Shown in pieces: positions 17,094 to 24,392 of a DNA stretch of 38,473 bases. The notes beneath the pieces were generated by a model, which did not search any database, was not told the origin of the DNA, and saw only the letters and a list, made by a program, of their open reading frames with translations. A program made the translations under genes and the position numbers. Origin of the DNA: Candidatus Saccharimonadota bacterium (lineage in GTDB: Bacteria; Patescibacteriota; Saccharimonadia; Saccharimonadales; Saccharimonadaceae); NCBI GenBank assembly GCA_017514805.1, contig JAFWIP010000006.1:123976-162448 (forward strand). The letters are read 5' to 3'. Positions within the stretch are counted from its first letter, which is position 1, and each line of letters opens with the position of its first letter.

Positions 17094-18515
17094 TTATTTC
17101 TTATCTTTAGAAATATGCTCTTGAACTTTCGCTAAGTCCTTCTGGCTACGGTACCAGTAGATACCACCAGTCGCGATACACACTACCGCAATAATTGCTA
17201 ATGCAATTTCACCAGGACCGGTCTTTGGTAATTCCGGAGGAGTAGTTTCATCATCGCATTTTTCTTTAGTAGGATCACACTCCGGCTCACATTGTTCCTT
17301 AGTAGGATCACATTCTGGTTCAGGACATTCATCATCCTCGCAACAAGTTGGATCAGTTTCCGGATCACACTTGTCCTCTTCACAGTTCTTCTTTACATAG
17401 ATAGTTGCGCTGTCGTATACTTCACCAACGTCACTTGAAGAACCGACGTTGTAGTCGACAATAATCTTATTCTTGAAAGCGTTTCTAGTTCCGCACTTAA
17501 AGCTTTCGACAATATTATCGTTCAACTTTACCTGATAGGTGATCGTAGCCATAGTATCTTTGCCATATAGACCAGTACTAAAGCCATTTTTGCCAATCAA
17601 GTCTTCCATCTTCTTGCCATTCGGACGAGCATTATCGACAAGATAAGTCGTACCATCTACAAGAGTTACGCCACTAGGCAACTTGTCGTGGAAGGTAACA
17701 TTCGTTAAATCGAGTGTACCAGTATTCTTCCATTCGATTTTGTAAGTAAGTGTATCGCCCGGATTGGCGTCGACGGAACTATAGAAGTTCTTGCCATCTT
17801 TAGATACAGTCTTCTTTACGGTCGAATCTGCCTTATCTGCTCTTAAGCGATAAGTAATATAGCCAGAAAACTCCGCACAGCCAGGAATATAGCCGTTGAA
17901 TGAATTCTCGCCAATCAAAGCACCGTTCGAAGAAAAGAGATAATCACTACTGATAACCTCGCCGTTCATCTTGTAACCGTTATGCATAGTCGCAGAAGCA
18001 GTTACATATTTCAAGACAATATCCTTCGTAGAATCCGTCTCGAGATAGGTCTCATCCCAAACTTCCTTCGGATTAGCATTTGACGAAGAGATTACCGCGC
18101 TAACCTTCGATTTCTTCGACGAGTTGATCGTCCAAGTCGAAAGACCAGTAGCAACTCTTACGTCGTGTGCGATACCAGATGCATTTTCATCGGTATTCAA
18201 CTTCGACATAGCATTGTTGTGGAAGTAAATATATACTTCATATTCTTTGCCTGGCGTAACTTTTACGCTATCGGTATACTTATTGCCTTCGCCAACTTCC
18301 CTCACGCGAACGAAGTTGCGCTCATCGCCAAGTGCCGAATTGTCCGTAATAGAGTTGAAGGTCACGTAATCGGCTGGATTCGCCATCGTGAAGGTCTTCC
18401 TCTCCGGACCATAGGCAGAGCTAGAGGCGTACGGAACAATCGCCGCGACTGCAACGGCAGCCAAGCCTGCTACCGTAAGCCTCCGTTTAAATTTTGTGTT
18501 TGTTTTTGTTAGCAT
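17094..18515 (-). CDS. LPKTG-anchored surface protein with DUF11-like repeat
   Basis: A 473-aa protein with all parts of a sortase substrate. Residues 1-34 are a signal peptide (basic TKFKRR, then a hydrophobic LTVAGLAAVAVAAIVPYASS stretch). Residues 243-375 resemble DUF11/isopeptide-type beta domains (NPGDTLTYKIEWKNTG, VTFHDKLPSGVTL). A Cys/Pro/Asp/Glu stalk at 378-420 holds nine cysteines with a repeated ECDPTKE.C unit. The sorting signal is L429PKTG433, followed by a membrane helix (about 436-456) and a charged tail (SQKDLAKVQEHISKDKK) longer than the classic short basic tail. Location on the outer cell surface is inferred. It follows the 610-aa surface protein by 33 bases with an AAGGAG ribosome site, so they are probably one operon. 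Confidence 0.9.
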   Translation of the reverse strand: MLTKTNTKFKRRLTVAGLAAVAVAAIVPYASSSAYGPERKTFTMANPADYVTFNSITDNSALGDERNFVRVREVGEGNKYTDSVKVTPGKEYEVYIYFHNNAMSKLNTDENASGIAHDVRVATGLSTWTINSSKKSKVSAVISSSNANPKEVWDETYLETDSTKDIVLKYVTASATMHNGYKMNGEVISSDYLFSSNGALIGENSFNGYIPGCAEFSGYITYRLRADKADSTVKKTVSKDGKNFYSSVDANPGDTLTYKIEWKNTGTLDLTNVTFHDKLPSGVTLVDGTTYLVDNARPNGKKMEDLIGKNGFSTGLYGKDTMATITYQVKLNDNIVESFKCGTRNAFKNKIIVDYNVGSSSDVGEVYDSATIYVKKNCEEDKCDPETDPTCCEDDECPEPECDPTKEQCEPECDPTKEKCDDETTPPELPKTGPGEIALAIIAVVCIATGGIYWYRSQKDLAKVQEHISKDKK

Positions 18516-18548: not shown

Positions 18549-20381
18549 TTACTGCATGGCCTCATTGATATCTACCTTGCCATCGTTATTGGTGTCGGTG
18601 TCATTCTTGCGCTCTTCGTTCGACTTATTCTCATTCTCGGCATTATTTTCTTTAGCCGTTTTCTCTTTTTCCTGAGCATCTTTTTCTTCTTGTTCTTCAG
18701 AAGCACGCTCATCTGGGTTAGATACATTTTGAGCGTCATTATCCGTCTTGTCGGCGTTATCTATATTGTTCTGAATGTTCCCATCTTGCCCTTCAGAATT
18801 GGCCGGCTTGCCGCCACCTTCGCCATCTTCAGTTGGCTTCTTTTGCCATTCATTTACAGGGTTCGTAGTCTTATCCTTCGCCGAGCCATCCGTATCATAA
18901 GTAACATCGCCGCCCGCACGTTCGTTGATCTTATTCGGATCCTTCGAATTATTCTCGGGAGTCTCAGGAGTCTCTGGAGTCTCTGGAGTCTCTGGGGTCT
19001 TTGGGGTCTCTGGCGTTTTTGGATCTGGAGTCGTTTCCGTAGGAGGTGGAGTCGTTCCGGTTGGTGTACTTGGTTCAGGGACGATACGGAGCGTAGTCAT
19101 ATCGGAAGGTATTTCCGTCAAGATTAATCGACCACCTTGATCACCACAGCTATCAAAGAACAGCGTCCAGTCTTCATGCTTTACGCCCGCCTCGTCATAC
19201 CAGACATTGCTAAATTCCCTCGAAGGAGCATGATCTTTATCGGTAATACAACCAACAACTTCCCAGTTACCACTTTCAATCGTACCGCCAGCGAAATCAG
19301 CATCCACATAGTAGTTGACATATCTACCGTTCGCCTCAGTAATGCGAACATCGCCATCAGTGACACTTTCATAGACAAAATCATATACCTTTTGATGTAA
19401 TTCTGGATCATTCGCCATCTGATGCGCTAAATCATTCGCATCAGTATAAGTTACATCAACGCCGAAGTTAGGATTCGTAGTGTTAATCTTCATGATATCG
19501 TAAGTCGAAGCCAAAGTCGTAATCTGAGTCATGCGTTCGAGATGATCCGCCTTCAATTCGGCGTCACTCTTTGTCTCGCCATTCTCGTTCTTGACCGTCA
19601 GTGACGGACCGAAGGCGTACTTATTTATCTTATTACTATTAGCCTCCGTGCCATCTTCGCTAGCATATTCCCCTCTAAATGTCGTAACTTCCGAAATGTT
19701 CTCATAACGCTCGCCGTAATTATGTTCCGATTCCGCATCAGCTTCTGTAGACGCTTCATCTGCAGTGGAATCATATGAGTGCTGGTTGGCATCAATAGAT
19801 TCCGCATTACCACCTAACGAACCGGCAACCGCATCGATCTTGGTAGCCGCATCGGTCCAGGCAGCCGCATCGGTCCCGGTAGCTGCATCGGTCGCGGTAG
19901 CCGCATCGGAATTTCCTAGCTGATTTTCTCGGAATTTTCCGCCCGCCCAGAATAAAGTACCGGCTAACGCTAAAATGCCTGCAGTCGCCAATATTTTGCC
20001 ACCGACTTTCTTTTTAAGGACCTTATCGCCAGCCCCCTCGTTGTTTTCATGCTTAGCACCTCCACCAGTGTTCCCAGGATCGGCATCAGTAATACCGCCA
20101 TCATCTTTAGGACCATCATCTCCCTTCGGGTCGCCATCTTCTGCGCCACGAATCTCATTCACCTTATCAAAGAAGGCACTTAGCTCATCGTCGCTCATCG
20201 ACTCATAATCGTACCCCCATATATCCTCTTTTCCGAACGCTGCCGCCGCCTCTGCAAGAATCTTAAAAGTTCCCACTTCTTCAAGCACTTCGATGGCTTT
20301 GTCGCGATTAAACTCTTCGGTTTCAGCTGACCATACAGAGCCTTCGCTTCCACCCGTTTTCGGTAATTCTGATGATGCCAT
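18549..20381 (-). CDS. Large single-pass surface protein with N-terminal LPKTG and C-terminal EF-hand loop
   Basis: A 610-aa protein, unrecognised as a family. From the N terminus: MASSELPKTGGSEG (LPKTG at residues 6-10); an acidic helical segment to about 120; KKK then a membrane helix (about 130-147, ILATAGILALAGTLFWAGG); Ala/Thr/Asp tandem repeats (159-184); a folded-looking domain (about 225-435) with two cysteines (378 and 412); a Pro/Glu/Thr repeat stalk (about 450-476); an acidic Asn/Glu/Lys tail; and a perfect EF-hand/dockerin-type calcium loop DTNNDGKVDINE (596-607). The in-frame ATG at 20429 is rejected because it lies inside the -10 box; AGGAAAAGAG precedes the ATG at 20381. Confidence 0.82.
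   Translation of the reverse strand: MASSELPKTGGSEGSVWSAETEEFNRDKAIEVLEEVGTFKILAEAAAAFGKEDIWGYDYESMSDDELSAFFDKVNEIRGAEDGDPKGDDGPKDDGGITDADPGNTGGGAKHENNEGAGDKVLKKKVGGKILATAGILALAGTLFWAGGKFRENQLGNSDAATATDAATGTDAAAWTDAATKIDAVAGSLGGNAESIDANQHSYDSTADEASTEADAESEHNYGERYENISEVTTFRGEYASEDGTEANSNKINKYAFGPSLTVKNENGETKSDAELKADHLERMTQITTLASTYDIMKINTTNPNFGVDVTYTDANDLAHQMANDPELHQKVYDFVYESVTDGDVRITEANGRYVNYYVDADFAGGTIESGNWEVVGCITDKDHAPSREFSNVWYDEAGVKHEDWTLFFDSCGDQGGRLILTEIPSDMTTLRIVPEPSTPTGTTPPPTETTPDPKTPETPKTPETPETPETPETPENNSKDPNKINERAGGDVTYDTDGSAKDKTTNPVNEWQKKPTEDGEGGGKPANSEGQDGNIQNNIDNADKTDNDAQNVSNPDERASEEQEEKDAQEKEKTAKENNAENENKSNEERKNDTDTNNDGKVDINEAMQ
18954..19022 (-). repeat. 9-bp tandem repeat encoding a Pro-Glu-Thr stalk
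   Basis: Roughly seven imperfect 9-base units (GGAGTCTCT on the plus strand) encode PETP/PKTP repeats. A likely site of length variation by slippage. Confidence 0.85.
19830..19907 (-). repeat. 18-bp tandem repeat encoding TDAAT-type units
   Basis: Four imperfect 18-base units (GCCGCATCGGTCNNGGTA on the plus strand) encode repeats such as TDAATGTDAAAW just after the membrane helix. Confidence 0.85.
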
Positions 20382-20427
20382 ATCTCTTTTCCTGTTTATA
20401 TTTTTATTTTTGACCTTATTTTGCTTC

Positions 20428-20457
20428 ATTTTAGCACTAGCTTTTTCAAAATGTCAA
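20428..20457 (-). promoter_or_regulatory. Sigma70-type promoter of the surface-protein operon
   Basis: -35 TTGACA (20452-20457), 18-base spacer, -10 TAAAAT (20428-20433) with an extended TGc. Transcription should begin near 20421, giving a leader of about 40 bases with an AGGAAAAGAG ribosome site. Confidence 0.8.
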
Positions 20458-21242: not shown

Positions 21243-24170
21243 TTAGACTTTTTCTAACGAGATCGTAACATTCTCACCGTCAATCTTCACGATCTCGTCG
21301 TAAGCATAGTTCTCTTTTGTGAGCTCTACGGCCAAAACTTCATTCTTTAACGTCTCAACATGCGCCTCGGGCACCTCGCACGAAACACTTAATTTAATGC
21401 GATCGTCGACATTGAGTCCAGCTTTCTTACGCGCTGATTGAACAAAGCGAATCAACTCGCGCACGAAGCCTTCCTCGCGAAGTTCATCAGTAAGCTTCTT
21501 ATCGAGCTCTAGCTTCTTGCCATGCGCAACACTCTTAACGTTAACTTCCTCAGCAATAATTTGCTCATAAAACTCATCTAGCTTATCGCCACCATATTTC
21601 AAGCTTGCGAGTGGCTGGCGCACCTTAATCTGACCAAACTCGTCATTGCGTTCCATGCGCAAAGCCAAGCCTTCTGTGATAATTGCACGACAATCTGCCA
21701 TCTTCGTGATTGCGACCTCATCAATCTTACCGGCTTTTGGCCAGTCCTGAAGATGTACGCTTTCGCCGCCCATCATATTCTGCCAAAGCTCCTCGGCGAG
21801 GAATGGCGTAAATGGTGCCAAAATCAACGCGAGATAACTCAAGACAAAGTGTAATGTCTCATAAGCCTCGGCCTTATCACTGCCTGATTCAGACTTCCAG
21901 AAACGGCGACGACTACGACGTACGAACCAGTTCGATAAGTCATCAACGAATGGCAAGATGCCAGCAGTAGCAGCCGGAAGGTTATACTTCTCCATTCCCT
22001 CCGTAATTTCATCACGAAGCTGATAAAGGCGTGCAATAATCCATGCATCGAGCGGGTTCTTAAGCTCCTTTGGAGCGACTAACTTGTTGCCCTTAAACTC
22101 CCAGCCATCTACCTCGGCATACATTGTAAAGAAGTCATAGACGTTCCAAATCATCGTAAGCTTGCGTGCAGTGTCTGATACATCCTTATCAATCAATGCG
22201 AAATCTTCACCAGCAAGCACCGGGCTAGAAAGCATCACAAAACGAAGCGCATCCGCGGAATACTGGTCCATCAAGACATTCGGATCGGTATAGTTGCCGA
22301 GTGATTTACTCATCTTGCGACCATCATTACCGGCCAAAGTGCCAGTCGTAATCACATTCTTATAGGCCTTATCGCCAAAGAGTGCCGTATTAACCGCATG
22401 AACGTAATAGAACCATGCACGCACCTGGCCAACATATTCTACGATGAAGTCTGCCGGGTAGTTAGCCTCAAACTTCTCTTTGTTCTCAAACGGATAGTGA
22501 AGCTGCGCGAATGGCATCGAGCCGGACTCGAACCAGCAGTCAAGCACCTTATCAACGCGCGTAAAATGTTCGCCATCAATGTCAAACTCAACCTCATCAA
22601 TCCATGGGCGATGGTAGTCCTCAAGACGTACGCCAGAAAGTTCATAGAGTTCATCATATGAGCCAACCACCTTTAGTGTGCCCTTATCGCCCTTCCAGAC
22701 CGGCATCGCCGTCGCCCAGAAGCGATCACGCGAGAGATTCCAATCTGGCGCCTGCTCGATATTCTTCGCAAAGCGACCATGCTTGAGATGCTCTGGGAAC
22801 CAATTAATGCCTTCATTCTTCTCAAGCATCAAAGACTTGTTACCCTCAATATCAAAGAACCAGCTCGGAATTGCACGGTACATAATGCGCTGCTTACTGC
22901 GCGGGTTAAATGGGTATTCGTGCTGAATATATTCAATCTTATAGATTGGCTTATCGTCGCCCTCCAAACACTTAGCGATAATCTTATTCATATCCCAAGC
23001 ATGAATCTTACCATCATCATCAGGACGCACACCTGCCTCTTTCATTGCTATATCGGCACCATCTAGGTAGAAGCCATTATCATCTAGAACATCAATAATT
23101 GGCACCTTTGCCTTCTTGCAAAGCTCAAAGTCGTCCTCGCCATATGCTGGCGCAATATGGACGATGCCAGTACCTTCTTCGGCGCCTACAAAATCTCCAG
23201 CATATACCTTATGCGCATTCTTTTCTTCGGCTTCATAGTAATTCTTTTCGAATTTTTGCCATTCTACTAGAGGAGTATTTGTTTCACCCAAGAATAGTGG
23301 TTCATAACTTAGACCAACAAGTTTCTCGCCCTTAAAAGTATCGAGCTCCTTCCAATCATCGCCCTGAGCCTTGCCCTTTAAAGCGATAAATTTACGCTTC
23401 TCGGCATCTTGATAGAGTGCGTAAGTTAGCTTCTTATTAACGGCGAGCGCCATATTACCAAAAAGCGTCCACGGCGTGGTAGTCCACGCCATAAGGTAAA
23501 CGCCCTTAAACTCGCCGTCATTAATCATAAACTTAACGTAAGCCGAAGGGTCAGTCACAGTCTGATAAGCATCATTATCCATCGTAACTTCCGCCTTTGA
23601 GACTGGGGTCGCGAACTTCGTATCATACATCAATACCTTAGCGCCCTCATAGATTTTGCCCTTCTCATAGAGCGTCTTAAATGCCCACCAAACCGACTCC
23701 ATGAAGTCCTTGTTCATCGTGCGATAACAGTTGTCAAAATCAACCCAGCGGCCAATACGATCAATCGTACCACGCCAAGTCTCCGAGTTTGCCACCATCG
23801 ACTCACGCGCCTTAATAATATAATCTTCGAGAGAAATCTTCGTGCCAATGTCGCGGCGATCGGTAATACCTAGCTGTTTCTCAACGAAATTCTCAGCCGG
23901 CAAACCATGGCAATCCCAACCCCAACGGCGCTCGACGCGCTTGCCATTCATTGTCCAATAACGTGGCACAGCATCCTTCACGACGGATGAAAGGAGAGTT
24001 CCGTGATGTGGCATGCCTGTAATAAATGGAGGGCCATCATAAAACACATACGAATTCTTCGCATCGCGATTATCGACCGACTTTTCGAAAGTTTTTTCTT
24101 TCTTCCAAAAATCCACGAGTGCTTTTTCATACTCGCTCGCACGTCGTCGGACACCATATTTATATTTCAT
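21243..24170 (-). CDS. ileS: Isoleucyl-tRNA synthetase
   Basis: Charges tRNA-Ile and edits mischarged valine. The 975-aa class I enzyme shows the HIGH-type signature PHHGTL (residues 54-59, after YVFYDGPPFITG), a CP1 editing domain with AWTTTPWTLFGNMALAVN, KMSKS at 619-623 (GRKMSKSLGNYTDPN), an anticodon-binding domain and a DUF5915-like C-terminal region. An in-frame ATG at 24269 would give 33 extra residues, but that stretch is the T-box terminator and antiterminator. The ATG at 24170 has AAAGGAG about 9 bases upstream and begins the family sequence. Confidence 0.97.
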   Translation of the reverse strand: MKYKYGVRRRASEYEKALVDFWKKEKTFEKSVDNRDAKNSYVFYDGPPFITGMPHHGTLLSSVVKDAVPRYWTMNGKRVERRWGWDCHGLPAENFVEKQLGITDRRDIGTKISLEDYIIKARESMVANSETWRGTIDRIGRWVDFDNCYRTMNKDFMESVWWAFKTLYEKGKIYEGAKVLMYDTKFATPVSKAEVTMDNDAYQTVTDPSAYVKFMINDGEFKGVYLMAWTTTPWTLFGNMALAVNKKLTYALYQDAEKRKFIALKGKAQGDDWKELDTFKGEKLVGLSYEPLFLGETNTPLVEWQKFEKNYYEAEEKNAHKVYAGDFVGAEEGTGIVHIAPAYGEDDFELCKKAKVPIIDVLDDNGFYLDGADIAMKEAGVRPDDDGKIHAWDMNKIIAKCLEGDDKPIYKIEYIQHEYPFNPRSKQRIMYRAIPSWFFDIEGNKSLMLEKNEGINWFPEHLKHGRFAKNIEQAPDWNLSRDRFWATAMPVWKGDKGTLKVVGSYDELYELSGVRLEDYHRPWIDEVEFDIDGEHFTRVDKVLDCWFESGSMPFAQLHYPFENKEKFEANYPADFIVEYVGQVRAWFYYVHAVNTALFGDKAYKNVITTGTLAGNDGRKMSKSLGNYTDPNVLMDQYSADALRFVMLSSPVLAGEDFALIDKDVSDTARKLTMIWNVYDFFTMYAEVDGWEFKGNKLVAPKELKNPLDAWIIARLYQLRDEITEGMEKYNLPAATAGILPFVDDLSNWFVRRSRRRFWKSESGSDKAEAYETLHFVLSYLALILAPFTPFLAEELWQNMMGGESVHLQDWPKAGKIDEVAITKMADCRAIITEGLALRMERNDEFGQIKVRQPLASLKYGGDKLDEFYEQIIAEEVNVKSVAHGKKLELDKKLTDELREEGFVRELIRFVQSARKKAGLNVDDRIKLSVSCEVPEAHVETLKNEVLAVELTKENYAYDEIVKIDGENVTISLEKV

Positions 24171-24380
24171 ACCCACATCTCCTTTCTTGTTGAACAAAAA
24201 AATTCCAACTTTCATTGGAACTCCTTTAGAGCGGTACCATCCAATTTCCGAATCTGAACAACTCGGCACTCACTTCTTCTCTCACGCGGATTCACGAACG
24301 GTTCTACTCGACCTAAACTCTCGCATTGTCTACGTCTTTCTTCCGTCAGCTCACAGCTGATAACTGCTCAAACGCTTTAT
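24171..24380 (-). promoter_or_regulatory. T-box riboswitch leader of ileS (transcriptional attenuator)
   Basis: The leader senses uncharged tRNA-Ile. The T-box core TGGATGGTACCGC spans about 24230-24242; its TGGT would pair with the tRNA-Ile 3' end ACCA. Just upstream, CCGAGT/ATTCGG forms stem III. Two exclusive structures share the same bases: ATTGGA pairs with TCCAAT (antiterminator), while TTCCAA pairs with TTGGAA followed by seven T (terminator, 24196-24220). Near the 5' end CGCAT can pair with ATGCG to close a short Stem I. An ATC isoleucine codon at 24359-24361 is a candidate specifier, not certain. Stem I appears much shorter than in classical Firmicute T-boxes. Confidence 0.88.
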
Positions 24381-24386
24381 GCGACA

Positions 24387-24392
24387 ATTATA
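24387..24392 (-). promoter_or_regulatory. -10 box (TATAAT) of the ileS leader
   Basis: TATAAT with a weak -35 (TTGTTC, 18-base spacer). It places the transcript start near 24380, at the 5' edge of the T-box structure. Confidence 0.65.

Follow-up and report, generated by a model that had tools for sequence, protein, structure and literature searches.

T-box riboswitches of class III have a short Stem I without the tip that binds the tRNA elbow, present their specifier in an apical penta- or hexanucleotide loop, and require Stem II (PMC10482949). Classes III and IV regulate mostly at the level of translation (PMC10482949), whereas transcriptional T-boxes generally require a long Stem I (PMC7583486). 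This long stem has been explained by the need to catch the tRNA before RNA polymerase gets to the terminator, with the ultrashort form being paired with translational control (PMC7583486; PMC10482949). In building TBDB, translational T-boxes were searched for in Actinobacteria, and the model was otherwise applied only to class I matches with a truncated Stem I (PMC7778990). In host-dependent bacteria, regulation has been called virtually unknown (PMC11665869).

The element described here resides in a 38,473-nt stretch of DNA (the window), which is part of contig C4 of a Saccharibacterium genome of 880,861 bases that is 98.9% complete. Judging from its sequence and those of its relatives, the ileS leader at positions 24381-24196 (minus strand) is very probably a T-box riboswitch that unites the tRNA-binding half of class III, with its ultrashort Stem I, with a transcription-attenuating output. 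The gene located downstream is ileS (21243-24170, minus strand), which codes for an isoleucine--tRNA ligase of 975 amino acids (TIGR00392, 773 bits with a cut-off of 621). Nearly all of the 80 closest relatives found for this protein are labelled Candidatus Saccharibacteria, and thus the assignment to the CPR made in a preliminary description of the sequence was correct.

A covariance-model search had been suggested in that description. When the leader (24213-24381, minus strand) was searched alone with RF00230, it matched over the full length of the model with 46.5 bits and an E-value of 2.8e-9, though the gathering cut-off, at 93 bits, is well above this score. Low scores of this kind are expected for an ultrashort Stem I. 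In the alignment to RF00230, AGC/GAGCU forms the base of Stem I, and nearly all of the usual long stem is skipped. No match was found when the whole window was searched with Rfam at gathering thresholds, and the leader is the sole RF00230 match in the genome. Because the score falls under the cut-off, automatic annotation overlooks this T-box, whose regulation of ileS we propose from comparison.

Leaders were collected from IleS relatives and from RF00230 matches in the family, yielding two alignments of 46 (A1) and 36 (A2) sequences. Stem I (24376-24348, minus strand; AGCGUUUGAGCAGUUAUCAGCUGUGAGCU) is only 29 nt long. It consists of a 3-bp base (AGC/GCU), an asymmetric internal loop (GUUUGA/GA), a 4-bp apical stem (GCAG/CUGU), and a 7-nt loop (UUAUCAG), as indicated by the RF00230 alignment, by RNAalifold on A2, and by covariation. 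The terminal loop carries the specifier AUC (24361-24359, minus strand), an isoleucine codon that corresponds to the tRNA anticodon GAU and occupies invariant columns in both alignments. Around this invariant triplet the closing stem varies, appearing as GCAG/CTGC, GTGG/CCAC, GCGG/CCGC, or GTCG/CGAC. Among 42 distinct sequences the apical stem is 100% paired with both sides variable, and in the 36 leaders of A2 the base of Stem I is 98.1% paired and the apical stem 100%. The specifier loop measures 7 nt, or 5 nt if the U-G pair closes, and 6-nt loops are found in other Patescibacteria. The preliminary description was right that Stem I is very short, and the true stem is even shorter than proposed, but its placement of the stem at CGCAT/ATGCG, enclosing about 50 nt, did not hold. 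This pairing is not conserved: ATGCG is part of Stem II, in its variable tip, and CGCAT spans the putative transcription start.

A putative -10 hexamer (TATAAT, 24392-24387, minus strand) is preceded by TGG and would constitute an extended -10 box (TGnTATAAT), and similar boxes recur shortly upstream of Stem I in relatives. Transcription of the leader would start near position 24380. No good -35 element accompanies the hexamer, and a promoter consensus scan did not report the box. Directly upstream of this promoter is a strong 20-bp hairpin with a T-rich tail (24476-24432, minus strand), which probably terminates transcription of the preceding gene.

The stems, pseudoknot, and bulge that follow Stem I also have the organization known from class III; all parts listed here are on the minus strand. 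Stem II (24347-24297) comprises a GACGG/CCGTT base, an AAGAA/AGTAGAA S-turn assigned from the sequence AGTAGAA only, a GAC/GTC upper helix, and a variable tip, with double changes at 5 of 5 base pairs in the base and 3 of 3 in the upper helix. The Stem IIA/B pseudoknot in the F-box region (24296-24278; CGTG/CGCG plus TC/GA) is paired in 216 of 216 alignment cells, and its pair 101-114 is seen as UA, AU, CG, and GC. Stem III (24266-24248; CCGA/TCGG) is 100% paired with double changes at all four of its pairs. It is followed by the antiterminator (24246-24214), which is formed by helix A1 (ATTGGA/TCCAAT), the TGGTACC bulge (24239-24233), and helix A2 (GCTC/GAGT); its 10 pairs are 100% paired in 36 sequences and six show double changes. 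An intrinsic terminator (24221-24196) then combines GTTCCAA and TTGGAA with a run of seven T residues (24202-24196). A Shine-Dalgarno sequence (AAAGGAG, 24185-24179) sits 8 nt before the ATG of ileS, outside both switching helices.

Most of this anatomy had been recognized from the single sequence. The positions of the T-box core TGGATGGTACCGC, Stem III, the antiterminator (AATTGGA/TCCAAT), the terminator with its seven T residues, and the ileS start at 24170 were all confirmed. The proposal of a T-box attenuator for ileS is likewise upheld by the RF00230 match, the invariant ATC, the covarying helices, the fit of UGGU to ACCA, and the presence of IleS downstream. Alignment with related ileS leaders, where a constant ATC specifier and compensatory changes had been named as support, revealed both. 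Unguided folding of the 36 leaders with RNAalifold produced 34 pairs, of which 25 showed double changes, and recovered Stem I, Stem II, IIA, Stem III, and the antiterminator. When the structure named above was scored in the same leaders, 98.4% of cells were paired and 22 of 29 pairs showed double changes, as compared with 27-41% pairing in controls with slid partners. Stem I and Stem III did not form as aligned in the minimum-energy fold of the single leader sequence.

These findings make a resemblance to T-boxes by chance hardly credible: the score is below Rfam gathering, but the E-value, the covariation in 36 leaders, and matches of our own model in 127 of 151 family genomes (see below) all speak against coincidence.

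For the presumed tRNA partner, the gene of a congener was compared. The TGGTACC bulge is invariant in leaders that share the terminator type of the window, and the tRNA-Ile(GAT) gene of the congener (G094) specifies A as the discriminator and encodes the CCA, giving an ACCA end. The expected fit of TGGT to the end of tRNA-Ile is therefore borne out with this congener's tRNA. In the assembly of the window itself, no tRNA-Ile(GAT) gene is present among 42 tRNA-model matches. In another relative this gene is located inside the rRNA operon, and a similar location probably explains why the gene is missing here. Operons for rRNA are often absent from draft assemblies. ARAGORN reported a tRNA-Ile(GAT) at 22512-22583 (minus strand), but this candidate falls within the ileS coding sequence, is not among the 42 covariance-model matches, and was rejected as an artefact.

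Because the TCCAAT arm serves as the 3' strand of the antiterminator and the 5' strand of the terminator, the two helices are mutually exclusive, just as the preliminary description had claimed. In the lowest-energy fold of the leader without tRNA, the terminator state is formed at -51.8 kcal/mol, and forcing the antiterminator gives -41.8 kcal/mol. Thirty-two leaders that share the window's terminator design (design A) keep both the hairpin and the T-run. Taken together, the exclusive helices, the conserved hairpin and T-run, the energetic preference for the terminator, and the uninvolved Shine-Dalgarno sequence point to transcription attenuation.

This evidence permits a mechanism to be proposed. 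The nascent RNA would begin a few bases upstream of Stem I, and the AUC of the Stem I loop would pair with the GAU anticodon of tRNA-Ile. Because Stem I lacks a tip for the tRNA elbow, the S-turn of Stem II and the IIA/B pseudoknot may brace the tRNA from the side. If the tRNA-Ile is uncharged, its ACCA end would pair with the UGGU bulge and hold the antiterminator, allowing polymerase to continue into ileS. With charged tRNA-Ile, or with none, the UCCAAU strand would instead pair downstream, the terminator would form, and transcription would end.

The tRNA-binding half of the leader belongs to a class that is mostly translational (PMC10482949), and so the element might instead expose or hide a ribosome-binding site without termination, as class III T-boxes do in Actinobacteria. 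An AAAGGAG with an in-frame ATG (24217) within the antiterminator/terminator region would suit such a device. However, the Shine-Dalgarno sequence of ileS lies outside both helices, the hairpin and T-run are conserved in relatives, and T-runs follow most of the further elements that we collected. The ATG at 24217 is itself not conserved, being ATAC in L037 and followed by a stop in L016 and L058. We consider translational control improbable for this leader. The same ATG (minus strand), which occurs a few nucleotides past the AAAGGAG and inside the terminator, would lengthen IleS by about 15 residues.

It is less probable still that the leader relies on attenuation by a leader peptide, or on a fixed terminator that does not sense tRNA, and that its T-box-like features are a relic. 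A terminator alone would work, but the short ATG frame from 24325 lacks an isoleucine codon. Moreover, all T-box parts, including the specifier loop and the pseudoknot, are under selection that preserves covariation, whereas a relic would lose them.

The terminator design seen in the window is not the only one in the family. Among ATC-type leaders, a helix preceding the T-run could be assigned in 57 of 58, a few of them weakly, and these helices fall into three designs. Design A is that of the window. In design B, the partner of the terminator's 3' arm is the loop of Stem III together with its 3' strand, in most cases over 15-25 bp, and the antiterminator stays as an apical hairpin. Sixteen leaders were assigned to this design, of which 14 are convincing, and 14 of the 16 beat all 60 shuffles. 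The convincing examples come from other genera and have helices of 9-25 bp (L006, L008, L015, L019, L021, L022, L027, L113, L118, L119, L122, L125, L126, and L127). Stem III, rather than the antiterminator, would be the competing helix in these RNAs. We know of no described T-box that resembles design B. In design C (nine leaders), the terminator arm has the 5' side of helix A2 as its partner.

Beyond these leaders, 81 additional elements were compared, most of which come from outside the family. Within 75 nt past the antiterminator, 73 of them have a run of at least five T residues, and in a control stretch 7 do. Four elements (L050, L174, L206, and L215) are without a clear terminator and may be translational.

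To survey the family and phylum, we built a covariance model (R1) from 30 leaders; its E-values are rough. At E-values up to 1e-3, this model finds matches in 127 of the 151 genomes of the family, with a single match in nearly all of them. In a sample of 380 genomes from the phylum, R1 matches 113 and RF00230 matches 128, only 13 of which exceed the cut-off; stricter filters were applied to this sample, and the counts are thus lower bounds. T-boxes therefore are common in Patescibacteria and are mostly hidden under the Rfam cut-off. The preliminary description had regarded a T-box in a CPR genome as notable by its mere presence, but about a third of sampled Patescibacteria genomes have T-boxes, and so presence alone is not remarkable.

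In the phylum-wide set, the downstream genes tested are synthetases: ileS, valS, aspS (both kinds), tyrS, and lysS. The codon in the Stem I loop agrees with the gene, as in ileS with ATC, valS with GTC, aspS with GAC or AAC, and tyrS with TAC. The cognate codon followed by A was found in the loop for 46 of 59 elements, and 5000 permutations averaged 21.8 and never exceeded 33; several of the mismatches reflect a wrong hairpin picked by the script. Given this agreement and the frequency of T-runs, the ultrashort transcriptional design looks general in Patescibacteria.

We lean slightly toward a broader reading, in which ultrashort attenuating T-boxes would be an ordinary amino-acid switch of Patescibacteria (ileS, valS, aspS, and tyrS) and the elbow-binding tip would be dispensable for co-transcriptional capture of tRNA. 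A subset in relatives would use a new output, in which the terminator takes the 3' strand of Stem III and thereby makes Stem III the switch.

With the class III ileS T-boxes of Nocardia farcinica and Mycobacterium, the leader shares a short tipless Stem I, an apical specifier, the Stem II S-turn, the IIA/B pseudoknot, Stem III, the T-box bulge, and the regulated gene (PMC10482949; PMC7583486). The output is an intrinsic terminator here, whereas it is a sequestered ribosome-binding site there, and the specifier loop is 7 nt long (or 5 with a closing U-G pair), compared with 5-6 nt there. The hosts also differ, being Saccharibacteria and other Patescibacteria, where relatives of the element also precede valS, aspS, and tyrS. 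Actinobacteria are the hosts of Saccharibacteria. Class I T-boxes (Bacillus subtilis tyrS; RF00230) have the same antiterminator/terminator logic, UGGN bulge, Stem III, and Stem II; in contrast to theirs, the Stem I of 29 nt has no distal double T-loop or internal specifier loop. The class IV ileS element of Actinomyces odontolyticus likewise has Stem II and no elbow-binding tip, but its specifier is in a side bulge rather than an apical loop. By sequence, then, the leader appears to be class III in structure, with a 7-nt loop, and to depart from the usual translational output of its class. Reviews treat the pairing of an ultrashort Stem I with transcriptional output as atypical, yet it appears to be common throughout this bacterial radiation. 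No paper describing T-boxes in Saccharibacteria, CPR, or Patescibacteria was found among open-access papers, and this absence is weak evidence.

Natural leaders with an ultrashort Stem I and a terminator make the kinetic argument about tRNA capture testable. They also provide a widespread, testable candidate for an amino-acid sensor in host-dependent bacteria, one whose scores are too low for the Rfam cut-off and which standard annotation therefore overlooks.

Several additional T-boxes were encountered in the survey. In a second type (L012, L025, L030, L112, L117, L121, and L123), the core reads TCCGGTGGAACC, the short loop of Stem I contains ACC or ACT, and the terminator (ATGCGAT/ATCGCAT) is separate. 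The gene that follows this type of T-box begins MNDEQLHAMRHSLAH and, by eye only, looks like a threonyl-tRNA synthetase. Longer Patescibacteria T-boxes also exist (L003 and L189-L196), some of which exceed the Rfam cut-off with scores up to 126 bits; the gene downstream of L003 is weakly similar to IleS and, judged by eye, resembles leuS. In several genera (L005, L008, L014, L018, and L019), the ATC T-box heads an operon in which a small protein comes first and ileS follows about 0.5-1.3 kb on. Elsewhere in the window, a predicted protein (17094-18515, minus strand) ends with ELPKTGPG followed by hydrophobic residues and RSQKD, which together resemble a cell-wall sorting signal of the LPXTG kind, and its neighbor (18549-20429) carries TPETPETP repeats.
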